64,000 bases of DNA from Acidisphaera sp. (GTDB taxonomy: Bacteria > Pseudomonadota > Alphaproteobacteria > Acetobacterales > Acetobacteraceae), in the NCBI GenBank assembly GCA_019240635.1, contig JAFAYA010000040.1:1-64000 (forward strand), read 5' to 3'. The notes under the pieces were generated by a model. That model saw only the letters and a program-made list of their open reading frames with translations, did not search any database and was not told the origin of the DNA. Made by a program: the position numbers and the translations under genes. Shown in pieces: positions 7,049 to 63,720 of this stretch; position 1 is the first letter of the stretch; the number at the start of each line of letters is the position of its first letter.

Positions 7049-7986
7049 TCGTCGGGTTCCTCCTGCCCGGTATACAGGGCATGGGCTGTGCGGGAGTCGG
7101 CACAGAACCACGCGAGGAGCCGGGTCACGGTCTCCGGGCGGTCATGCATCAGCGCATGTCCGCTGCCGTTCAAGACGTGCATATCCGCCCGGGGAATCAA
7201 CCGCATCAGGGCGAGGCCGCGCTCCACCGGCACCGTCGCGTCCTCGTTTGCCCAGATCAGCAGCGTGGGTGCGGTCATCTGCGGGAGATAGGGAAGCAGG
7301 TGATCTTCCTGCAACCGTACATAGGCGCGGTAGTCGGTCGGGCCGTCGCTCTGCGAGTCACGCATCATCGCCGCCTGGCCGCTGGCCAGCGCACGCCCGT
7401 ATGCTTCGCGCAGCAGCCCCGCGTGTTGCTCGTCCATGGCGGGGCTCGCGCGCCGCGCCGCCGCCACGAATGCCTCGGCATCCCCTGGGAAATTCCGGTA
7501 GTCGTAGGCTCGCCGGCTCGCCGCCATCCAGGCCTCGTCCGCCGCGCCGCCCAGTGCCGGCGCGGTGCCGCCGCTGGTCATCAGCACCAGCCTGGTGACC
7601 AGGTCCGGCCGCGTCACCGCGATGCGCGCGGCCATGAAGGCGCCTTCGGAATGGCCGACCAGACAAGCGGCCCGCACGCCCAGCGCGTCGAGCACGGCAA
7701 CCGCGTGCTCCGCACGTTCCAGCCGGTTCCGGTAGCGTCGGTCCGCGGGCATGTCGGTGCGGCCGAAGCCGATCTGATCGAAGGCGATCACGCGGAACGA
7801 CCGCGACAGCGGCTCGATCTGGCGATGGAAGGTGACGTACGCCTCCACCCCGATCGAGGCACCGTGCAGCAGCACCATGGCGGGACCAGATCCGGCCTCC
7901 ACCACGAAGGTGCGCACCCCACCCGCCTGGATGAACCGCCCCGCCGAAACCGCCGCAGGTCCGCGTTCAGGCATCTGATGAACCAC
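7045..7986 (-). CDS. Alpha/beta hydrolase
   Basis: MVLLHGASIGVEAY, ACLVGHSEGAFMAARIA, GHALMHDRPE. Confidence 0.9.
   Translation of the reverse strand: MVHQMPERGPAAVSAGRFIQAGGVRTFVVEAGSGPAMVLLHGASIGVEAYVTFHRQIEPLSRSFRVIAFDQIGFGRTDMPADRRYRNRLERAEHAVAVLDALGVRAACLVGHSEGAFMAARIAVTRPDLVTRLVLMTSGGTAPALGGAADEAWMAASRRAYDYRNFPGDAEAFVAAARRASPAMDEQHAGLLREAYGRALASGQAAMMRDSQSDGPTDYRAYVRLQEDHLLPYLPQMTAPTLLIWANEDATVPVERGLALMRLIPRADMHVLNGSGHALMHDRPETVTRLLAWFCADSRTAHALYTGQEEPDE
7069..7077. promoter_or_regulatory. Candidate GntR operator half-site GGTATACAG
   Basis: About 20 nt upstream of the GntR start (7048); same core as the two sites near 13.2 kb. Confidence 0.35.
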
Positions 7987-8029
7987 CCACTACCTCCGGC
8001 AACGCCGGCCGGGCCCGACGGCGGCCTTC

Positions 8030-9592
8030 TCAGGCTTCGCCGCGCCAAGTGTCGCGAAACCGTGGTATCTGGTCGGGCGGCCAGGCGAAGCCCTTCACCG
8101 ACTTGGCGATCGCGGCGTATTCCGCCGAGAAATACAGCGGGATGTAGGGCAGGTCCTCCATGACCTTCGTTTTCACTGCGGCATACAGCGCCTTTCGCTT
8201 CGCCTGATCCAGGCTCTGGCGGGCCTCTTCCAGCATGCGGTCGACCTCAGGGTTGGAGTAGCCGGTGGTGTTCGCGTAGCCCTTGCTGTCCAGCAGCACG
8301 TAGAGCATGCCGTCGGGATCGGCCAGCTGGGTCCAGCGCATCGGCGTGAAGTCGATCGCCTTCTGCACGACGCGCGCGTACCACTCGCTCTGCGCGACCG
8401 GCTGCAACCGCACGTCAAGGCCCACCTCGCCGAGCTGCTCCACGACGAGCTGGACCAGCTTGCGCAGCACGGCGTTGTCGGGTGCGGAGAGGACGAGCCT
8501 GGTGCCCGGCGCGATCCCCGCCTGCTTCAGCAGTTCCTTCGATCTGGCGGGTTCGCGATCGTAGACGATCGCATCGGGGCTCGACCACCAGACGCCGCTC
8601 GGAATCGGGCCGTTCGAGATCCGGGCCTGGCCGCCCATCGTGATCGCGTTGATCTTGTCGCGATCCAGGGCGTAGGCGATCGCCTTGCGCAACCGGATGT
8701 CGTTGAAAGGCGGTTTGTCCACCTGAAATTGCAGGGTGTACCAGCGGCCGATCTTTGCCTTCTCGACGCGCAGCTTGTCATCGCCCTGGATCTGTCGCAG
8801 CTCGTCCACCGAGAGCGCGTCGAGGTAGTCGGCTTCGCCGGTGAGCAGCCGTTGTATCCCGATGTTCAAGGTGCCGATGTCGTTAAAGACGATGCGGTCC
8901 CAGTGCGGCAAGCCCTTCTGCCAGTAATTCGGATTCCGCTCCACCGTCACGTCGACGCCCTGGTTCCAGTCCTTGAAGACGAAAGCGCCCGTCCCCACGG
9001 GATTGCGGCCGAAATCCTGGCCGTATTTCTGCACGGCGCTGGGAGAGACCATGAAGCCGGCACGGTCCGCCAGTGCGGCGAGCAGCGGCGGATAGGGCGC
9101 GGTCAGATTGATCGCCACCGCATGCGGGCCCGCCACCTCGACCGATTCAATGACGGGACGGAGCTGCGGGCGTTGGGTGGAGTTCACCTTGTCATCCAGG
9201 CGTCGGTCCAGGTTCCATTTCACCGCCGCGGCGTCGAAATCCGTGCCGTCGTGGAACTTGACGCCCTCTTGCAGCTGCAGGACGTAGCGGTGCCCCTCGT
9301 TTTCGGGACTCCAACTCGTCGCCAGCTCCGGCTTCAGTGAGAAGTCGAGGTCGGTCGCGATCAGCGTGTTGTAGATCAGGAACAGGATCTGCCGCTCCGC
9401 CCATTGGAAGGAGAAGGTCGGATCCAGCGTCTTCGAATCGTTCTGGATCGCGACAGTCAGGGTACCGCCCTGCCGCGGCGTGTCCGCATTTTCGGCCACC
9501 GCGGGCCGCGACCCCTGAAGGACGGAGATCGCGCCAAGTCCCGCGAGCGCCGCCCTGCGGCCTAGTCGGAAAGTTCCAACCGGAAAACTCAT
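8030..9592 (-). CDS. Peptide-type ABC transporter substrate-binding protein (SBP_bac_5)
   Basis: GGTLTVAIQNDSKTLDPTFSFQWAERQILFLIYNTL... with signal sequence. Confidence 0.93.
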   Translation of the reverse strand: MSFPVGTFRLGRRAALAGLGAISVLQGSRPAVAENADTPRQGGTLTVAIQNDSKTLDPTFSFQWAERQILFLIYNTLIATDLDFSLKPELATSWSPENEGHRYVLQLQEGVKFHDGTDFDAAAVKWNLDRRLDDKVNSTQRPQLRPVIESVEVAGPHAVAINLTAPYPPLLAALADRAGFMVSPSAVQKYGQDFGRNPVGTGAFVFKDWNQGVDVTVERNPNYWQKGLPHWDRIVFNDIGTLNIGIQRLLTGEADYLDALSVDELRQIQGDDKLRVEKAKIGRWYTLQFQVDKPPFNDIRLRKAIAYALDRDKINAITMGGQARISNGPIPSGVWWSSPDAIVYDREPARSKELLKQAGIAPGTRLVLSAPDNAVLRKLVQLVVEQLGEVGLDVRLQPVAQSEWYARVVQKAIDFTPMRWTQLADPDGMLYVLLDSKGYANTTGYSNPEVDRMLEEARQSLDQAKRKALYAAVKTKVMEDLPYIPLYFSAEYAAIAKSVKGFAWPPDQIPRFRDTWRGEA

Positions 9593-52637: not shown

Positions 52638-53690
52638 CTACAGGATGTCGTCGCGGATGCACGCCTTGGCGTGGCCGGGTGCCACCTCCCGCAGCAGCGG
52701 CACCTGCACGGCACAGGCGGCGAGGACGTGCGGGCAGCGGGTGCGGAAGACGCAGCCGGAGGGCGGCGCGAGCGGGCTCGGGATTTCGCCGGCCAGTCCG
52801 GGTCGGGTCGCCCGGCGCGCGGGATCCGGCTCCGGCACCGCTTCCAACAGGGCGGCGGTATAGGGATGGCGCGGGCGGCAGTAGAGGGCCTCTCGCGGGG
52901 CAATCTCCATAAGCCGTCCGAGATACAGCACCGCCACGCGGTTGCTCACGTGCCGCACCACCGCCAGATCGTGCGCGATGAACAGCATGGTCAGCCCGAG
53001 CGATTGCCGGAGGTCCAGCAGCAGGTTCAGCACCTGCGCCTGCACCGAGACGTCGAGCGCCGAGACCGGCTCGTCGGCGATCACCAGCTCCGGCCCGACC
53101 GCAAGCGCGCGGGCGATGCCGATGCGCTGGCGTTGGCCGCCGGAGAATTCGTGGGGATAGCGGTCCATCGCGTCCTCGGGCAGGCCGACCTGGCGCAGCA
53201 TGTTCGCGACGCGCTCCGGCCGGTCGCGCCGGCTGCCGATGGCGTGGATCGCGAACGCCTCGCCGACGATGTCGCGTACCGTCAGCCGCGGGTTGAGGCT
53301 GGAATAGGGGTCCTGGAAGATCATCTGCATGCGCCTGCGATGGCGGCGCAGCGCGGCGCGCGGCAGATGGGTGATATCCTGGCCGTCGAAGCGCACGGCG
53401 CCGGCGCTCGGCTCGACCAGGCGAAGGATGGCGCGGCCGACGGTGGTCTTGCCGCTGCCGGATTCGCCGACGAGCCCCAACACCTCGCCGCGGCCGACGC
53501 TGAGGCTCAGCTCGCGCACCGCGCGCAGCGCCGGGACGGCACCGCCGAACCAACGGCGCTGCGGCGCGAACGTCACCTCGAGCGCCCGCAGCTCGACGAG
53601 AGCGTGATCGCCGGAGGTGGAAACACCGGAGGCGTGAATCACGCTATCAACGAAGGCATGGAGCCGGACGGGTGGGCGCAAGCGACCCAT
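52638..53690 (-). CDS. Peptide-type ABC transporter ATP-binding protein (DppF-like)
   Basis: [53 protein letters not shown]-terminal oligo/HPY region. Confidence 0.95.
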   Translation of the reverse strand: MGRLRPPVRLHAFVDSVIHASGVSTSGDHALVELRALEVTFAPQRRWFGGAVPALRAVRELSLSVGRGEVLGLVGESGSGKTTVGRAILRLVEPSAGAVRFDGQDITHLPRAALRRHRRRMQMIFQDPYSSLNPRLTVRDIVGEAFAIHAIGSRRDRPERVANMLRQVGLPEDAMDRYPHEFSGGQRQRIGIARALAVGPELVIADEPVSALDVSVQAQVLNLLLDLRQSLGLTMLFIAHDLAVVRHVSNRVAVLYLGRLMEIAPREALYCRPRHPYTAALLEAVPEPDPARRATRPGLAGEIPSPLAPPSGCVFRTRCPHVLAACAVQVPLLREVAPGHAKACIRDDIL

Positions 53691-53708
53691 CCGGCGCGAG
53701 CGGCGCGC

Positions 53709-54706
<998 letters not shown>

Positions 54707-54710
<4 letters not shown>

Positions 54711-55582
54711 GTGAGACGCCGGAGCCGCGGATCGAGCGCGTCGCGCAGCCCGTCGCCGACCGCCTGCAGCGCCAGCACGGTCGCCACCATGCACAGGCCG
54801 GGGGCAAAGATCAGCCAGTCGGCGCGACCGATATACTGCTGGCCGCCGGCGATCATGTTGCCCCAGCTCGGGCTGGTCGGCGGCACCCCGGCGCCGAGGA
54901 ACGACAGACCCGCCTCGGTCAGGATCGTCGCGGCGAAGGTGAAGGTGCACTGCACGAGCAGCGGCGACAGCAGGTTGGGCAGCAGATGCACGCGCATGAC
55001 CCGCCAGTCCCCCGCACCGAGCGCCTCGGCCGCCTCGACGAACTGCAATTCGCGCAGCACCAGCGTGCCGCCGCGGACCACGCGGGCGACGCGCGGCGTG
55101 TAGACCGCGCCGAGTGCCACCACCACGTCGTAGAGCGAGGCGCCGAGTGCCGCCATCAGCGCGATGGCCAGCAGGATATCGGGAAACGCCATCATGGCGT
55201 CGGTGACGCGCATCAGGAAGCCGTCGAGGCGACGGACATAGCCGGCGGTGATGCCGACGATCGTGCCGGCGAGGCCGGAGAGCGCCACCACGAGCAGGCC
55301 GATCGTCAGCGAGATCCGCGCGCCGTACATGCATCGGGCGAGCACGTCGCGGCCGAATTCGTCCGACCCAAGCAGGTGCGCGGCCGAGGGCGGAGCGAGG
55401 CGGTGGACGATGTCCATGCGCTGCGGCGCATACGGCACGAGCCAGGGTGCCGCCGCCGCGGCGATCAGCACCCCTGCCAGGACCAGCATGCCGAACAGTG
55501 CAAGCCGCCGCCGCACCAGGCGGCGCAGCAGTTCGCGAAGCGGTGCCGCGCGGGCCGGCGCTCGCGCGATCATGCCGGACAT
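54707..55582 (-). CDS. ABC transporter permease (DppC-like)
   Basis: [55 protein letters not shown]. Confidence 0.93.
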
Positions 55583-56523
55583 CAGTAGCGCACCCGGGGG
55601 TCGAGCGCCGCGTACAGCAGGTCGACGGCGAGATTGATCAGCACGTAGGCGCCGGAGATCACCAGCAGCGCGCCCTGGATCACCGGATAGTCCCGCCGCA
55701 GCACCGCCGAGACCACGAGGTTGCCGATGCCGGGCAAGCCGAACACCGTCTCGGTGACGATCGCGCCGCCGATCAGCCCCGCGACGGTGAGGCCGAGCAC
55801 CGTCAGTACCTGCGTCCGCGCGTTGCGGAAGGCGTGCTTCATGATGACCGCGCCGGGCCCGAGCCCCTTTGCGCGCGCGGTGCGCACGTAGTCCTCGCCG
55901 AGCACGTCCAGCATGCTGGCGCGGGTGAAGCGGACGATCAGCGCGGAGTTCGGTATGCCGACTGCGATCGCCGGCAGGATCAGGTAGCGCAGATGCGCGA
56001 GCGGGCCCGCGCCCGGCGGCCCGTATCCGGCGACCGGCAGCACGTGCCAGCGCACGGCGAAATACTCGATGAGCGTCAGCCCGACCCAGAAGCTCGGCAG
56101 GCTTGCAGCGGTCATCGCGAGCCCGGTCGCCGCCTGGTCGAGCAGGCTGCCCCGCCGGACCGCGGCGAGCACGCCGACCGGCACGCCGAGCCCCACGGCG
56201 ATGGCCGCGGCGATCGCCGTGAGCTGCAGCGTCAACGGCGCGCGCTGCGCGAGTGCCGCGGTGACGCTCTGGTCGAGGAAGATGGATTGGCCGAGCCGAA
56301 GCCCGGCGGCCGCCCGCATGAAGCTCAGATACTGCACCGGAAGCGACGCATCGAGACCGAGCCGCGCGCGCAGCGCGGCGACGTCCGCGGCGGTGGCGGA
56401 AGGGCCGAGCATCACCGCCGCCGGATCGCCGGGAATCACATGCGCGATCACGAACACCACTGACGCGACCAGGAACATCACGACGAGCATGCCGGCCAGG
56501 CGCCGCAGCATGAAGCGCGTCAC
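55582..56523 (-). CDS. ABC transporter permease (DppB-like)
   Basis: [66 protein letters not shown]. Confidence 0.93.
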
Positions 56524-56571: not shown

Positions 56572-58113
56572 TCAGGCCGCCAGGGAAACATTCCAGAACG
56601 CCGGCGGCTGCGCCGGCGTGAAGTCTTGCAGCTTCGTGCTGATGCCGTAGAGCAGCTTGTAGTAGCCGATCAGCAGGCTGGGCACCTGGCTGTAGAACAG
56701 CTCGTGCATGCGCCGCCACGCCGCCAGCTTCGCCTCCGTGTTCGGCGCGGTGACAAAATTTTCCAGCGCCGCGCGCTTCTCGGGCGTGTCCCACCATCCC
56801 GCGTAGTTCGGGTTGAAGATGCTGAAGAAAGTAGGATCCGGCATGATCGGGCTGGACGTGACGAACGCCTCCCAACTGGTCGGGTCGTTGCGCTTCTGCA
56901 AGAGCGTCGCCCAGTCCATCACCTGCACATCGACCGTGAATCCGGCATCCTGCAGATTGGCGCCGGCCACCTGGGCGGCCTTGTACATATAGTCGTACTG
57001 GGTGGTCGTGAAGATGCGGAACGGCTGGCCCTTGTAGCCCGCCGCCTTCAGCATCGCCCTCGCCTTGGCCGGGTCGTGCGTGTCGTAGCCCGGCGTGTCC
57101 GCGACAAAATAGTCGGTGCCCTTCGGGTAGATCGAGCCGGTGGCGGTCCACAGCGACGGCGGGCCGAACGCCGCGGCCAGCATGTCGCCCGGCACGGCCG
57201 CCGCCAGCGCCGCCTGACGGATGCGCAGGTCGGAGGTGAGCCCCGCCTTGGTGTTCATCGCCAGCAGTACCCAGCCCGGCGTGATCATCGTGCCCTGCTG
57301 CAGCCCGGGCTTGCCGGCAAGCTGCTGGTAGCTTTCGGTCGTCAGCACATCCGCGAAATGATATTCGCCGGAGATCAGTCCATCGGCGCGCGTGGTCGGG
57401 TTGCCGACCGGAATGAAGCGCAGCTCGTCGACGTTTGCGGTGCGCGCGCCGACAAAACCGTTCGGCTTGCCCGGCGGCGAGGCGTATTTGTCGAAGCGCG
57501 CGACCCGGATATAGCGGTCCGGCACGTGCTCGAGCAGGCGATATGGGCCGGTGCCGACAAATTTTTCCAACGGCCCGCTCGCCGCGGCGATGGCCTTCGG
57601 CATGATCGCGGAGGCGCCGTTGAACAGCGCGAGCAGGATGATCAGGGGTGAGTAGGGCTGCTTCAGCGCGATCTGCACGGTGTGCGGATCCGGTGCGCTG
57701 AGCGCCTCGACGGAGGGTGCCGCGGCCTGGGCGCGCGGCGACAGCTTCAGCCACCGCTGTAGTGACGCGACCACGTCGTCGGCCGTCATGACGCTGCCGT
57801 CGTGGAACGGCACGTTCTCCCGCAGCGGTATCGTGTACCGCTTGCCGTCTTCGCTGATCTGCGGCATCGCGGCGGCCAGCACCGGGGCGACGTGAAACGA
57901 CGGATCGCAGGCATACAGTGTCTCGAAAAAATGCTGGTCGATCTCGTTGACCAGGTCGGCCAACGTGGTCATCGGATCGAGCACGCCGGGCTCGCCGATC
58001 ACGGCGATATTGGCGGCGTGTGCGCCCTGCGCCGCGGCGAAGCGCGTCGGCATAACCGCGGCGGCAGCCGCGGCGAGCAGCAGCCGGCGCTCCGGCGAAA
58101 CCAGCTTTTCCAT
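56572..58113 (-). CDS. Peptide-type ABC transporter substrate-binding protein (SBP_bac_5)
   Basis: LDPMTTLADLVNEIDQHFFETLYACDPSFHVAPVLAAAMPQISEDGKRYTIPLRENVPFHDGSVMTADDV. Confidence 0.94.
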   Translation of the reverse strand: MEKLVSPERRLLLAAAAAAVMPTRFAAAQGAHAANIAVIGEPGVLDPMTTLADLVNEIDQHFFETLYACDPSFHVAPVLAAAMPQISEDGKRYTIPLRENVPFHDGSVMTADDVVASLQRWLKLSPRAQAAAPSVEALSAPDPHTVQIALKQPYSPLIILLALFNGASAIMPKAIAAASGPLEKFVGTGPYRLLEHVPDRYIRVARFDKYASPPGKPNGFVGARTANVDELRFIPVGNPTTRADGLISGEYHFADVLTTESYQQLAGKPGLQQGTMITPGWVLLAMNTKAGLTSDLRIRQAALAAAVPGDMLAAAFGPPSLWTATGSIYPKGTDYFVADTPGYDTHDPAKARAMLKAAGYKGQPFRIFTTTQYDYMYKAAQVAGANLQDAGFTVDVQVMDWATLLQKRNDPTSWEAFVTSSPIMPDPTFFSIFNPNYAGWWDTPEKRAALENFVTAPNTEAKLAAWRRMHELFYSQVPSLLIGYYKLLYGISTKLQDFTPAQPPAFWNVSLAA

Positions 58114-58164
58114 CGCGTCCTCTCGTTCCGGCCGGCGATGCCCGAGGATAGGTCGCCGGCCGAC

Positions 58165-58178
58165 TTTCGCAAAAGAAA
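58165..58178. promoter_or_regulatory. Degenerate candidate operator TTTCGCAAAAGAAA
   Basis: TTTC-N6-GAAA arrangement, same arms and spacing as 58872-58887; upstream of the SBP start at 58113. Confidence 0.4.
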
Positions 58179-58198
58179 TACCGAAGGCTCCCGCCGGT

Positions 58199-58834
58199 TC
58201 AGCCCGGGCGGCGCCGCCGTGCCGGCGCCTGCGCCGCCGGGTCGGCCGGCGAGATCGCGATCACGTTGATGATCGCGGCCTTCGCCCGCCCGACCCGCAG
58301 GAAAGCGTGGCCGACCCGGCTGTCGAAATACGCGGAATCGCCGGTATGCAGGATGGCAGGCGGATGGCCGATCCGGTGCAGCGCCACCGTGCCCGAGGCG
58401 ACCCAGACGAACTCCTCGCCGGGGTGGCTGTTGAATGGCCCGAACGCCTCCAGCGTGGCGGTCTTCACCTCGGTCAGCAGCGGCACCATGCGCTTGCCCG
58501 AAACCTCCGCGCACAGATATTCGTAGCGGTAGTTCTCGCCCGCGACCTGCCGGCCGCCGCGGCGCAGCGTCAGGCCGAGCACGCCATCCAGCCGCGCCAC
58601 CGGCGCCTCGGCGAGCAGTTCGGCGATGTCGATCTGCAGTCCGCCGGCGATCTTCAGCAGGCTTTCGTAGGTCAGGGAAATCTGCCGGTTCTCGACCTTC
58701 GAGAGGGTGGAGACGGCCAGCCGCACGCGCCCGGCCATCTCCTGCAAGGTCCAGCCGCGCGCCTTGCGCAGATGGCGGAGCCTGCCGCCCAGGTCGATCC
58801 CGCCCTCGCTCGCCGCGTCGGTTCTTGCCCGCAT
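58199..58834 (-). CDS. XRE family regulator with C-terminal cupin
   Basis: LGGRLRHLRKARGWTLQEMAGRVRLAVSTLSKVENRQISLTYESLLKIAGGL HTH plus NSHPGEEFVWVASGTVALHRIG cupin. Confidence 0.92.
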   Translation of the reverse strand: MRARTDAASEGGIDLGGRLRHLRKARGWTLQEMAGRVRLAVSTLSKVENRQISLTYESLLKIAGGLQIDIAELLAEAPVARLDGVLGLTLRRGGRQVAGENYRYEYLCAEVSGKRMVPLLTEVKTATLEAFGPFNSHPGEEFVWVASGTVALHRIGHPPAILHTGDSAYFDSRVGHAFLRVGRAKAAIINVIAISPADPAAQAPARRRRPG

Positions 58835-58871
58835 GCCGCCATCCTGACCGCCCGCATTGCCGGGCCCGTCG

Positions 58872-58887
58872 TTTTCTAATAGGAAAA
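58872..58887. promoter_or_regulatory. Candidate XRE-cupin operator TTTTCTAATAGGAAAA
   Basis: TTTTC-N6-GAAAA dyad between the divergent regulator and DAPAL-like gene; 15-mer repeated exactly at 62688-62702. Confidence 0.65.
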
Positions 58888-58892
58888 GCCGC

Positions 58893-60026
58893 ATGCCGCC
58901 ACCGACCGCGCGCCTCGAGCTGAACCGGCAGAGACAAGCCGATCCCGCAGCCGTCGCCGCGCTTGTCACGCGAGCGGCGTTGCGCGCGGCGGCGCGGGCG
59001 ATCGCCGACTGGGCGGAATACCGGCCGACGCCGACCCGACCGCTGCCGGGCCTCGCCGCCCGGCTCGGCGTGGCCGAGGTCGCGGTCAAGCTGGAAGGCG
59101 AGCGCTTCGCGGTCGGCAGCTTCAAGGCGCTGGGTCCGCCCTACGCGCTGCAACGCGAGCTGCGCCGCCGCGGCGGCGCGCCCAATGGCTGGACCGCGGT
59201 CGCCGCGACCTCCGGCAATCACGGCCGCGCGCTGGCCTGGGGCGCGGCGCGGCTCGGCGCGCGCGCCTGCATCTTCATGTCGGCGCACGTCTCGCCAGGC
59301 AGGGCCGAGGCCATCGGCCGGTTCGGTGCCGACGTTGTGCGCGTGCCCGGCGATTTCGACGCGGCGTCGCAAGCCGCGGCCGAGGCGGGACGCCGCCCGC
59401 GGCATCTGCTGATCGGCGACCTGCCGGTGCAGGGCCGGATGGACATCGCGCGCGACACGATCTGCGGCTACGCGGTGCTGGGACAGGAGATACTCGCGCA
59501 GTGCGGCGAACCGCCGACGCATGTTTTCGTCGCGGCCGGCAACGGCTCGCTCGCCGCCGCGGTCTGCGCGCGGCTGCGGCTCGAGCCCGGGCTGCGCCAG
59601 CCCTGCATCTGCACGGTCGAGCCGACCGCGTCCGACGCGATCCGCCGGAGCCTGGCGGAGGGCGCCGCGGTGAGCCTGCCGGACGGCGCCTCGGTCATGG
59701 ACGGGTTGGTGGTCCGCGCGCCGGCGGCGGCCGCCTGGCCGATCCTGCGCTGCGGCCTCGACGCCGCACTGGCGATTCCCGACGCGGCGGCACTGCTGGC
59801 GCTGCGCGGGGCGGCCTCCGGCGCCTGGGGCGACGCGCCGCTCGCGATCGGCGAGACCGGCATCGCCGCCGTCGCCGGCCTGCTGCAAGCGGCCGGCGAT
59901 CCGATGATGGCGCGGGCGCTCGGCGTCGGCCCGACGAGCCGGTTGCTGGCGATCGCCTGCGAAGGGGTGACCGATCCCGACGTCCTCGCCCGTCTGCTCC
60001 ACGAAGCGGAGAGGGCGATGGCGTGA
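58893..60026 (+). CDS. PLP-dependent diaminopropionate ammonia-lyase/threonine dehydratase-like
   Basis: FAVGSFKALGPPYAL (PLP Lys); VAATSGNHGRALAWGAARLGARACIFM; PTHVFVAAGNGSLAAAV. Confidence 0.88.
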   Translation: MPPPTARLELNRQRQADPAAVAALVTRAALRAAARAIADWAEYRPTPTRPLPGLAARLGVAEVAVKLEGERFAVGSFKALGPPYALQRELRRRGGAPNGWTAVAATSGNHGRALAWGAARLGARACIFMSAHVSPGRAEAIGRFGADVVRVPGDFDAASQAAAEAGRRPRHLLIGDLPVQGRMDIARDTICGYAVLGQEILAQCGEPPTHVFVAAGNGSLAAAVCARLRLEPGLRQPCICTVEPTASDAIRRSLAEGAAVSLPDGASVMDGLVVRAPAAAAWPILRCGLDAALAIPDAAALLALRGAASGAWGDAPLAIGETGIAAVAGLLQAAGDPMMARALGVGPTSRLLAIACEGVTDPDVLARLLHEAERAMA

Positions 60027-60036
60027 GGATCGCGCC

Positions 60037-61512
60037 TTGAAGATCGCCTTGGGCGCGCTGCTGTTCGAGGGCAACACGTTTTCGCCGGTCGTGACCGATC
60101 GGCGCGACTTCGCGTCAAAATACCTGTTCGAGGGCGAGGCCATGCTGGCCGGCCTGGCCGGCAGCGGCACCGAGATCGCCGGCGCCGCCGCCGCCGCAAG
60201 CGCGACCGGTGCCGACATCCTGCCGCTGATCGCGACGCATGGCGGGGCCGGCGGGCGCGTCGCCGCGGCCTGCCACGCCGAGCTGAAAGCGACCTTGCTG
60301 CACCGGCTGGCGGCCGGCGGCGCGGTGGACGGCGTCTGCCTCGCGTTGCATGGCGCCTTCGTCGCCGAGGGGATCGACGACGTGGAGGGCGATCTGCTCG
60401 CCGCGGTGCGCGGCATCGCCGGCCGCGTGCCGATCGTGGTGAGCTGCGACCTGCACGCCCATGTCACCCAAGACATGCTGCGGCTCTGCGACGCGCTGAT
60501 CGGCTACCGCACCTACCCGCACGACGACGCGTACGAGACCGGCGAACGCGCGATGCGCCTGCTGCTCGACATCGTCGCCGGGCGGCTGCATCCGATTATG
60601 CGCGCCTGCCGTGCGCCGCTGCTGCTTCCGGCGCAGCGCCAACGCACCGCGGGCGATGGCCCGATGGCCGGCATCGTCGCGCTGGCGCGCCGGCTGGAGA
60701 CCGGGCCGGTGCGCGCGGTCAGCTATTTTCCCGTGCAGCCCTGGATGGATTTTCCGGCGATGGGCTTTACGACCGTCGCGGTCGGCGAGACCGAGGCGGC
60801 GACCGCCGAGGCGGCCGAGCGTGTCACCCGCGCCGCCTGGGAGGCGCGCCGCGCATTCCAGGTCGCGGTGCACGCGCCGGACGCGGCCATCGCCGCCGGC
60901 CTGCGCCAGCCCGGTCTGGCGGTGCTGGCGGACGCGGCGGATTGCGTGGGCGGCGGCGCCACGGGCGACAGCGCGGGCATCGCCGCCTGGCTGCGACAGC
61001 ACGCGCCCGAGGCGCCGGCGGCGCTGCACGTCGTCGACGCCGAGACGGTGCGCCAAGCGCAGCGTCACCGGCCCGGCGCACGCTTTCGCGCATCTCTCGG
61101 CAACAAGCTCGACCCGGCCTATGGCACGCCGGTACCGCTGGATGTCGAGCTGGTCTCTCTCTCCGACGGACGGTTCCGTTATGCCGGCGGGCTGATGCGC
61201 GGCGTGGAGGCAACCACCGGTCCCACGGCGGTTCTGCAGTCCGGTGCACTGACCATCGTGGCGGGCTCGCTCTCCGCCTACGAATACGCCGACGAGGTCT
61301 TTGCCGCCAACGGCGTCGACGTGCGCACCAAAAAATTCGTCGTGGTGAAAAACCCGATGAACTACCAGCCGGCCTATGCGGGGGCGGCGCAGTACGTGCT
61401 CGACACGCCCGGCCCGACCACGCCGAATCTGGCCCGCCTGCCATGGGGGCGGCTGGACCGGCCAACCTATCCGATCGATCCGGATTGTCCGCCGTCGTTC
61501 GTGCGGATGTGA
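60037..61512 (+). CDS. M81 family (MlrC-like) metallopeptidase, TTG start
   Basis: KIALGALLFEGNTFSPVVTDRRDF; VSCDLHAHVTQDML; GYRTYPHDDAYETGERA; DCVGGGATGDS. Confidence 0.88.
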   Translation: MKIALGALLFEGNTFSPVVTDRRDFASKYLFEGEAMLAGLAGSGTEIAGAAAAASATGADILPLIATHGGAGGRVAAACHAELKATLLHRLAAGGAVDGVCLALHGAFVAEGIDDVEGDLLAAVRGIAGRVPIVVSCDLHAHVTQDMLRLCDALIGYRTYPHDDAYETGERAMRLLLDIVAGRLHPIMRACRAPLLLPAQRQRTAGDGPMAGIVALARRLETGPVRAVSYFPVQPWMDFPAMGFTTVAVGETEAATAEAAERVTRAAWEARRAFQVAVHAPDAAIAAGLRQPGLAVLADAADCVGGGATGDSAGIAAWLRQHAPEAPAALHVVDAETVRQAQRHRPGARFRASLGNKLDPAYGTPVPLDVELVSLSDGRFRYAGGLMRGVEATTGPTAVLQSGALTIVAGSLSAYEYADEVFAANGVDVRTKKFVVVKNPMNYQPAYAGAAQYVLDTPGPTTPNLARLPWGRLDRPTYPIDPDCPPSFVRM

Positions 61513-62741
61513 CGCAGTCCCGGCGGGCGCTGAACGTCGCCGACTTGCGTGAGGCGGCCCGGCGGAGCTTGCCGCGGGCGCTGTTCGAGTTCATCGACCG
61601 GGGCACGGAGGACGAGGTGGCGCTGCGCGAGAACCGCCTCGCCTTCGAGCGAATCCGCCTGCGGCCGCGCGTCGGCGTGGACGTGTCCATCCGCTCGCAA
61701 GCCGTGTCGCTGTTCGGCCGCGAACAGGCGATGCCGCTCGCCGTCGCGCCGACCGGGATTGCGCCGCTCGCCTGGTTCGACGGCGAGGTCGCGGTCGCGC
61801 GCGCCGCGGCGGCGGCCGGAATACCCTTCGCCATCGCCACGGCTTCGCTGACCGCGATGGAGCGGCTGGCGGCGGAGGCGGGTGGGCGGCTATGGTTCCA
61901 GCTCTACGCCTTCACCGACGCCCGCATCACTGTCGGCCTGATCGAGCGGGCGCGGGCCGCCGGATTCGAGGCGCTGATCGTCACGCTGGACACGCCGGTC
62001 TTTCCCAACCGCGAATACAACCTGCGCAACGGCTTCGCGGTGCCCGTGCGCATGAGCCCGCGCCTGGCGCTGGACGTGCTCGGGCATCCCGGCTGGCTGA
62101 TGTCGGTGCTGCTCCGCTATCGGCTGAGGGGCGGACTGCCGGTCAGCGCCAACCTGCCGGAGCCGTATCGCCGGCTGATCGCGCGTGACCCGGACGCGGT
62201 GGCCGCGTCGCGCAGCGCCGCGCTGACCTGGGAGGATGTCCGGGCTATCCGGGACCGCTGGCCCGGCATCTTCATGGTCAAGGGGATCATGCGCAGCGAC
62301 GACGCAAGGCGCGCCGTCGTCTGCGGCGCCGACGCCATCATCGTCTCCAACCACGGCGGCCGCACTCTCGACAGCGCCCTGGCGCCGATCGACGCGCTGC
62401 CCGGGATCGCCGATTGCGTGGGAGATGCGGCGACGGTGCTGATGGATGGCGGCGTCCGGCGCGGCAGCGACGTCGTGAAGGCGCTCGCCCGCGGCGCGCG
62501 GGCGGTGCTGGTCGGCCGCGCGCCGCTCTACGGCGTGGCGGCGGGCGGCCAGGCCGGGGCGGCGCATGCGCTGGCCCTGCTGCGCCGGGAGATCGACCTC
62601 TGCCTCGCCCTGGCCGGCTGTCCGCGCGCGGCGGAGATCTCGGCCGAGCTGCTCGCGGATTGCAGACGGGCGGTATCGTGTCCAGAATTTTCTAATAGGA
62701 AACAGGCGGGCGGCGATGCGTGGCGTACACCTCGAGGCTGA
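61509..62741 (+). CDS. FMN-dependent alpha-hydroxy-acid dehydrogenase
   Basis: ALFEFIDRGTEDEVALRENRLAFERIRLRPR; DAIIVSNHGGRTLDSALAPIDALPGI; LMDGGVRRGSDVVKALARGA. Confidence 0.93.
   Translation: MTQSRRALNVADLREAARRSLPRALFEFIDRGTEDEVALRENRLAFERIRLRPRVGVDVSIRSQAVSLFGREQAMPLAVAPTGIAPLAWFDGEVAVARAAAAAGIPFAIATASLTAMERLAAEAGGRLWFQLYAFTDARITVGLIERARAAGFEALIVTLDTPVFPNREYNLRNGFAVPVRMSPRLALDVLGHPGWLMSVLLRYRLRGGLPVSANLPEPYRRLIARDPDAVAASRSAALTWEDVRAIRDRWPGIFMVKGIMRSDDARRAVVCGADAIIVSNHGGRTLDSALAPIDALPGIADCVGDAATVLMDGGVRRGSDVVKALARGARAVLVGRAPLYGVAAGGQAGAAHALALLRREIDLCLALAGCPRAAEISAELLADCRRAVSCPEFSNRKQAGGDAWRTPRG
62688..62702. promoter_or_regulatory. Candidate XRE-cupin operator TTTTCTAATAGGAAA (second exact copy)
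   Basis: Identical 15-mer to 58872-58886, inside the 3' end of the preceding ORF and 13 nt before the deacylase ATG. Confidence 0.6.
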
Positions 62742-63720
62742 TGTCGACCGCCGCGGCCGCTCGCTCGGCTGGCTCCGGGCGGAGTGGTCGAACGATCGTT
62801 CGGGCTACGGCACCGTCGCCACGCCGGTCGTGGTGATCGGCAACGGGCCCGGCCCGACCCTGCTGCTGATCGCCGGCACGCACGGCGACGAATACGAAGG
62901 CCAGGTGGCGCTGGCGCGGCTGGCGCGCGCGCTCGACCCGGCCCGGCTGCGCGGGCGCGTGCTGCTGCTGCCGGCGCTCAATCGCATGGCGGTGCAGGCC
63001 GGCGCCCGGCTCTCGCCGGTGGATCGCGGCAACCTGAACCGGCTGTTCGGTGTCGGCGCGCAGACGCCCACCGGCCTGCTCGCGACGTTCCTGGAACGGG
63101 AGCTGATCCCGCTCGCCGACGCGGTGCTCGACCTGCATTCCGGCGGACGCTCCATGCGCTACGTGCCGAGCGTGTTCGTGCAGGATGCGGCGGAGGCCGC
63201 GCTGTGGCAGCGCACGCGCGGCATCGTCGCCGCCTTCGGCGCGCCCTGGTGCTTCGTCAAGCCGAAGGACCCGAGCGAGACGACGATGCTCGGCGCCTGC
63301 GGGCGGGCCGGCGTGGCCTACCTCTCGACGGAGCTGGGCGGCGGCGAGCGGCTCGACCCAGTGTTGCTGGCGCTTGCCGAGGCGGGCTGCATGCGCGTCG
63401 CCGCGGCGCTCGGCATGATGCAGCCGCCGGAGGGCCGCGGGGAGACCGTGCGCTGGCTGAGCGTGCCGGGCGAGAGCCACTACGTGTACGCGCCGTGCGG
63501 CGGCGTGTTCCAGGCCGAGGCGGCGCTCGGGGCGGAGGTGGGGCGCGGCGACTGCGTCGGGCTCGTACATACGCCGGAGGACCCGCTGCGCGAGCCGGTG
63601 CCCGTGCATTTCCGCCAAGACGGCGTGTTCGTCTGCCGACGGACCACGGCGCGCGTCGAACCCGGGGATTGTCTCGGGCATCTCGGCGTCGCGCTGCCGG
63701 ACATCAAGGGATCGGGTTAG
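62716..63720 (+). CDS. Succinylglutamate desuccinylase/aspartoacylase family deacylase (DoeB/EutE-like)
   Basis: LLLIAGTHGDEYEGQVALARLARAL; LSPVDRGNLNRLFG; DAVLDLHSGGRSMRYVPSV; YLSTELGGG. Confidence 0.9.
   Translation: MRGVHLEADVDRRGRSLGWLRAEWSNDRSGYGTVATPVVVIGNGPGPTLLLIAGTHGDEYEGQVALARLARALDPARLRGRVLLLPALNRMAVQAGARLSPVDRGNLNRLFGVGAQTPTGLLATFLERELIPLADAVLDLHSGGRSMRYVPSVFVQDAAEAALWQRTRGIVAAFGAPWCFVKPKDPSETTMLGACGRAGVAYLSTELGGGERLDPVLLALAEAGCMRVAAALGMMQPPEGRGETVRWLSVPGESHYVYAPCGGVFQAEAALGAEVGRGDCVGLVHTPEDPLREPVPVHFRQDGVFVCRRTTARVEPGDCLGHLGVALPDIKGSG

Follow-up and report, generated by a model that had tools for sequence, protein, structure and literature searches.

A conserved 16-bp palindrome as the predicted operator of an XRE-cupin regulator in a catabolic gene cluster of Acidisphaera sp.

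Gene organization of the cluster

The 64-kb stretch of DNA analyzed here (the window) belongs to a draft genome of Acidisphaera sp. that comprises 2.39 Mb in 134 contigs and is 72% complete. Near its end lies a group of genes arranged around an XRE-cupin regulator (Table 1). The genes of an ABC transporter run in the direction of the regulator, and a divergent operon encodes an ammonia-lyase, an M81-family peptidase and an FMN-dependent dehydrogenase, followed by the gene of a deacylase. Together with a class II aldolase gene beyond the window, these neighbors of the sites described below are all concerned with transport or with small-molecule metabolism. The GTG start of the FMN-dehydrogenase gene overlaps the stop of the M81 gene (GTGA), which suggests that the two form one operon.

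Table 1. Genes and predicted operator sites of the cluster. Scores in bits and ranks of the sites are those of the weight matrix derived from other species.
Feature	Position	Strand	Remarks
Two permeases and two ATPases of the ABC transporter	52638..56523	-	ORFs; homologous to annotated Dpp-type permease and ATPase genes of relatives
Substrate-binding protein (SBP_bac_5), dipeptide/nickel-type ABC transporter	56572..58113	-	Pfam
Weak candidate operator 4, CTTTCGCAAAAGAAAT	58164..58179	.	Between regulator stop and substrate-binding protein start; 15.8 bits, rank 5
XRE-cupin regulator (HTH + Cupin_2)	58199..58834	-	Pfam HTH_31/HTH_3 at 14-73, Cupin_2 at 132-191, above cut-offs
Predicted operator 1, TTTTCTAATAGGAAAA	58872..58887	.	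Perfect match to TTTTCYNATNRGAAAA; 29.0 bits, rank 1
PLP-dependent ammonia-lyase, diaminopropionate ammonia-lyase family	58893..60026	+	PALP; first operon gene after operator 1
M81-family (MlrC-like) metallopeptidase	60037..61512	+	Pfam PF07364 and PF07171
FMN-dependent alpha-hydroxy-acid dehydrogenase/oxidase	61509..62741	+	Pfam FMN_dh, 423 bits
Predicted operator 2, TTTTCTAATAGGAAAC	62688..62703	.	24.9 bits, rank 2
AspA/AstE-family deacylase	62716..63720	+	Nearest NCBIfam model DoeB, 217 bits against a cut-off of 403
Predicted operator 3, GTTTCCTATACGAAAA	64658-64673		Same contig, outside the window; 24.2 bits, rank 3

The regulator combines an N-terminal helix-turn-helix of the XRE/Cro type with a C-terminal cupin, as expected of local metabolic repressors of the XRE-cupin kind. 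Against the NCBIfam PuuR model it scored 22.5 bits, far below the cut-off of 211, and it is not assigned to that equivalog. Within the cupin, residues H137, E141 and H176 (as well as E140) are invariant in eight aligned relatives. In an alignment with the epoxidase HppE, H137 and E141 correspond to His138 and Glu142, known as iron ligands in that enzyme, and the sensor cupin of the regulator may therefore hold a metal.

The ammonia-lyase scored 258 bits against NCBIfam PRK08206, just under the cut-off of 276, and matched the diaminopropionate ammonia-lyase of E. coli (4d9g) with E=9e-32. Lys77 and Asp189 of the E. coli enzyme are kept, and the position of Asp120 is occupied by Ser (SGNHG versus DGNHG), so that the substrate or the stereo-preference of the enzyme may differ from that of its E. 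coli counterpart.

Beyond the window, the gene next to operator 3 that encodes the 2-hydroxyacid dehydrogenase carries a frameshift at its GxGxxG motif (L004 about 7716-8636; contig C3 about 63715-64635, minus strand), either through genuine decay or through an error of the draft assembly.

Operator-like palindromes in the window and the draft genome

The 15-mer TTTTCTAATAGGAAA occurs as exact copies at 58872 and 62688, as had been reported in an earlier note on this DNA. When up to three mismatches were allowed, the rest of the 64-kb window gave no match other than these two sites read on the opposite strand, and shuffled sequence would be expected to give 0.01. The shorter form TTTC-N6-GAAA was found three times (58165, 58873 and 62689), against 0.06 expected after dinucleotide shuffling; the degenerate site that the note had placed at 58165 is among them, and the three places it named are the sole occurrences in the window. 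Its judgment that such a repeat is improbable by chance is thus borne out. The TTTTC-N6-GAAAA dyad that it had described holds in full (5+5) at 58872. The copy at 62688 ends in C and retains only a 4+4 dyad, with one outer base unpaired.

The flanks of the 58872 and 62688 copies show no similarity to each other. Duplication of a segment was therefore ruled out as the origin of the exact repeat, which is taken to be a selected sequence.

The sites of the XRE-cupin loci described in the following section yield a palindromic consensus of 16 bp, TTTTCYNATNRGAAAA, which the 58872 site matches at all positions. The center of the site (N6) is itself non-random, since the sites of these loci fit the perfect palindrome. 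Searching the whole draft genome with the 16-bp consensus at up to two mismatches returned three sites only, the third of them, which the note had missed, situated 658 bp past the end of the window. All three fall inside one cluster of about 6.5 kb in this 72%-complete draft, and the regulon, which had been called scattered, is accordingly local.

Operator 1 occupies the gap between the regulator and ammonia-lyase genes, which are transcribed divergently, and it precedes both starts, that of the regulator by 37 bp and the ATG at 58893 by 5 bp. Operator 2 falls within the final codons of the FMN-dehydrogenase coding sequence and precedes the deacylase ATG at 62716 by 12 bp. Operator 3 has the 2-hydroxyacid dehydrogenase gene (minus strand) on one side and the class II aldolase gene (plus strand) on the other. 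A search for sigma-70-type promoters at the sites recognised none.

Conservation of the palindrome among XRE-cupin loci

The palindrome was sought in 113 XRE-cupin loci (1.69 Mb) from genomes and plasmids, the window locus included, whose other regulators are 36-48% identical to the present one. A close orthologue of the whole cluster was not found, the closest regulators in other genomes being 43-48% identical. With the arms as defined in the earlier note, exact occurrences of TTTTC-Nk-GAAAA were counted for k = 0 to 14. There were 17 at k=6 (16 of them outside the window), and between 0 and 3 at each of the 14 other spacings, with a mean of 1.7. Upstream of the regulator start, within 300 nt, eight sites had the k=6 spacing and none any other, in agreement with the predicted conservation of the motif ahead of related regulators. 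The Poisson probability for the 16 sites outside the window is about 5e-11, a value that overstates independence, as some loci are closely related: four are from Ensifer, and L127 and L048 belong to the same contig. Both the weight matrix and the consensus were selected in part on these very loci; full independence holds for the spacing test alone. Spacings of N5 and N7 with one mismatch also seemed enriched near the regulators, but nearly all of these are N6 sites read one base off register, and they were dismissed as separate spacings.

Sites were present in Ensifer, Mesorhizobium, Brucella, Acetobacteraceae, Rhodospirillaceae and other groups, those of Mesorhizobium and Brucella carrying one arm mismatch. 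Many related regulators, including most of those from Rhodobacteraceae, are without the motif, which therefore belongs to only part of the regulator family. The length of 16 bp lies within the range of about 15-25 bp expected of operators of this kind, and arms and spacing are conserved across species.

This conservation bears on the suggestion that the AGGAAA end of the palindrome doubles as a ribosome-binding site at both starts, and on the related reading that the whole element acts in the RNA, as a ribosome-binding site or, through its T-tract, as part of a terminator. The former role is plausible only at the ammonia-lyase gene, where AGGA stands 8 nt before the ATG at 58893. The deacylase gene, in contrast, has a closer AGGCGG before the ATG at 62716. 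The sites of relatives do not lie over ribosome-binding sites: in Ensifer L026, 28 and about 240 nt separate them from the next starts, which have ribosome-binding sites of their own, and the left arm and exact spacing kept across species have no role in ribosome binding. Weak terminator-like hairpins do precede the T-tracts at all three sites. These tracts, however, are only four residues long, short for terminators, and neither the right arm nor the spacing nor the AT-rich surroundings of the sites in relatives accord with such a function, so that a terminator was rejected. An RNA hairpin was ruled out as well, folding being no better than that of shuffled sequences (z 0.60 and -0.81). We consider an element working at the RNA level extremely improbable, and the overlap with the ribosome-binding site incidental to a site on DNA.

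Specificity of the sites

A weight matrix built exclusively from sites of other species was applied to about 76 kb (75,984 positions) and ranked operators 1-3 first to third, the next score being 16.6 bits (for individual scores see Table 1). In 19 genomes or plasmids of relatives, the consensus at up to one mismatch was found at 0-5 sites each, 48 in total, and 17 of the 48 lie within the regulator's own locus of about 16 kb, that is, in about 0.3% of the DNA searched. Neither these counts nor the three sites of the Acidisphaera genome approach the hundreds of copies that would mark an unspecific sequence. The regulator loci of G144, G669 and G746 lack any sequence within one mismatch of the 16-bp consensus; those of G746 and G144 carry a looser match ahead of the regulator.

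Four of the genomes (G144, G574, G669 and G746) carry 4-5 operator-like sites each, almost all of them away from the regulator locus. They could reflect either a wider regulon or paralogous regulators.

Gene content of related clusters

The genes that accompany the regulator and its sites vary among the related loci. The M81 peptidase and the deacylase of L129 are 54% and 41% identical to those of the present cluster, and two sites lie there between the M81 gene and a divergent gene of the enolase superfamily. Four Ensifer loci (L025, L026, L052 and L060) combine a Dpp-type transporter with an M81 gene, with sites before the M81 gene and after the transporter; in L026 the latter site stands before a gene of the creatininase family. 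In Microvirga (L058), a class II aldolase gene (54%) directly follows the regulator, and the transporter comes next.

Sites also occur downstream of the regulator. In Mesorhizobium (L051 and L063) the regulator stop is followed by a site and then by an SBP_bac_5 gene, and in Brucella (L050 and L053) as well as in L054 and L056 a site comes after the regulator stop and before another enzyme gene. The site at 58164 in the window occupies an equivalent place, and of 20,000 shuffled versions of the 85-bp gap, 28 scored at least as high. On the strength of the matrix score, the shuffling and the sites of these relatives, it was kept as a candidate, and is probably a weak fourth operator.

Genes for D-serine dehydratase-like, D-amino-acid oxidase-like and M55 proteins, as well as permeases of the D,D-dipeptide type, recur in L050, L053, L054, L056, L026 and L031. 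This mixture, together with the M81 peptidases, suggests that the related clusters serve to import and degrade small peptides or amino acids, which may be D-configured or modified.

The variable gene content is also relevant to the question of which protein binds the palindrome. It might be the site of another transcription factor, encoded elsewhere in the genome for example, that regulates the cluster along with the XRE-cupin gene. Co-occurrence is not binding, and a gene for a MocR-type regulator is found about 2 kb past operator 3 (L004 10190-11656). On the other hand, the one thing that all the loci share is the XRE-cupin gene, by which they were collected, and the palindrome with a spacing of 6 persists while the surrounding enzymes change from species to species. 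Characterized XRE-cupin proteins, moreover, use palindromes of similar size beside the regulator. Control by a different factor thus appears quite unlikely.

Proposed mode of repression

The prediction that the palindrome is the operator of the XRE-cupin regulator is well supported by its conservation, its rarity and its recovery by a matrix from other species. We consider it highly probable that a dimer of the 58199-58834 product recognizes the 16-bp palindrome and represses the cluster until an inducer is bound; dimer binding, repression and induction by a substrate are proposed by analogy with characterized XRE-cupin relatives. The dimer would bind TTTTCYNATNRGAAAA, one copy of which is TTTTCTAATAGGAAA(A), and in the absence of inducer would occupy at least three sites of the cluster and block transcription. 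Through operator 1 it would control the divergent ammonia-lyase/M81/FMN-dehydrogenase operon and the regulator itself, which is likely to be autoregulated. Operator 2 would act on the deacylase, operator 3 on the class II aldolase and/or the 2-hydroxyacid dehydrogenase, and the weaker site at 58164 may govern the dipeptide-type ABC transporter. When the cupin binds a small pathway molecule, probably a substrate of the amino-acid or dipeptide type, the protein would leave the DNA and the cluster would be expressed.

The same regulator could conceivably bind these sites and activate transcription, or both activate and repress it. NceR of Neisseria, an XRE-family protein that has been compared with XRE-cupin regulators, is described as activating ompA (PMC10470515). 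All of the characterized Pseudomonas XRE-cupin proteins and DbuR are repressors, however, and the short distances of operators 1 and 2 from the neighboring starts place them for blocking. Activation, alone or combined with repression, is consequently regarded as very unlikely.

A broader reading would be that TTTTCYNATNRGAAAA represents a so far undescribed operator of an alphaproteobacterial XRE-cupin clade, which controls genes for importing and degrading amino acids or dipeptides that are D-configured or otherwise modified, with a single recognition code and a changing gene content. This is offered tentatively, as a possibility that falls somewhat short of being probable. Among the papers searched, none described the motif or a close variant of it. 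A 2025 survey reports 223 XRE motif clusters (PMC12565409), and the present motif could be among them.

The predicted operator provides a testable site for uncharacterized regulators in Acetobacteraceae, Rhizobiaceae, Mesorhizobium, Brucella and related bacteria, whose small catabolic regulons become predictable from sequence. It also points to the natural substrate of the cluster as the likely inducer.

Comparison with known XRE-cupin systems

Characterized XRE-cupin proteins, such as PsdR, PauR, ErfA and DbuR, are local repressors with palindromic sites (PMC7901475, PMC10965056, PMC12724383). PsdR of Pseudomonas aeruginosa shares with the present regulator the combination of helix-turn-helix and cupin, and has two palindromic sites around its own gene. 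It represses the adjoining genes for a dipeptide-type substrate-binding protein, dppA3, and a metallo-dipeptidase, mdpA (PMC7901475, PMC10965056). Its operator, TTAAG-N5-CTTAA, differs from the TTTTC-N6-GAAAA found here, which is therefore not of the PsdR type, and the set of targets in Acidisphaera additionally includes an ammonia-lyase, an M81 peptidase, an FMN dehydrogenase, a deacylase and an aldolase.

DbuR of Pseudomonas putida is similarly divergent from the catabolic operon that it represses, and its site is a 20-bp palindrome over the -10 element (PMC12724383). This palindrome (AATTCTCATATATTAGAATT) is a single site, in contrast to the three or four in the present cluster. The polyamine repressors PauR and PuuR likewise provide for cupin-sensed repression of catabolic genes, with a site upstream of pauR (PMC7901475), but they respond to other ligands, and the PauR regulon is larger. 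The general picture of XRE-cupin regulators is unchanged by these results, which will not greatly surprise specialists: the predicted system described here would join PsdR and DbuR among the known local metabolic repressors of the XRE-cupin type.
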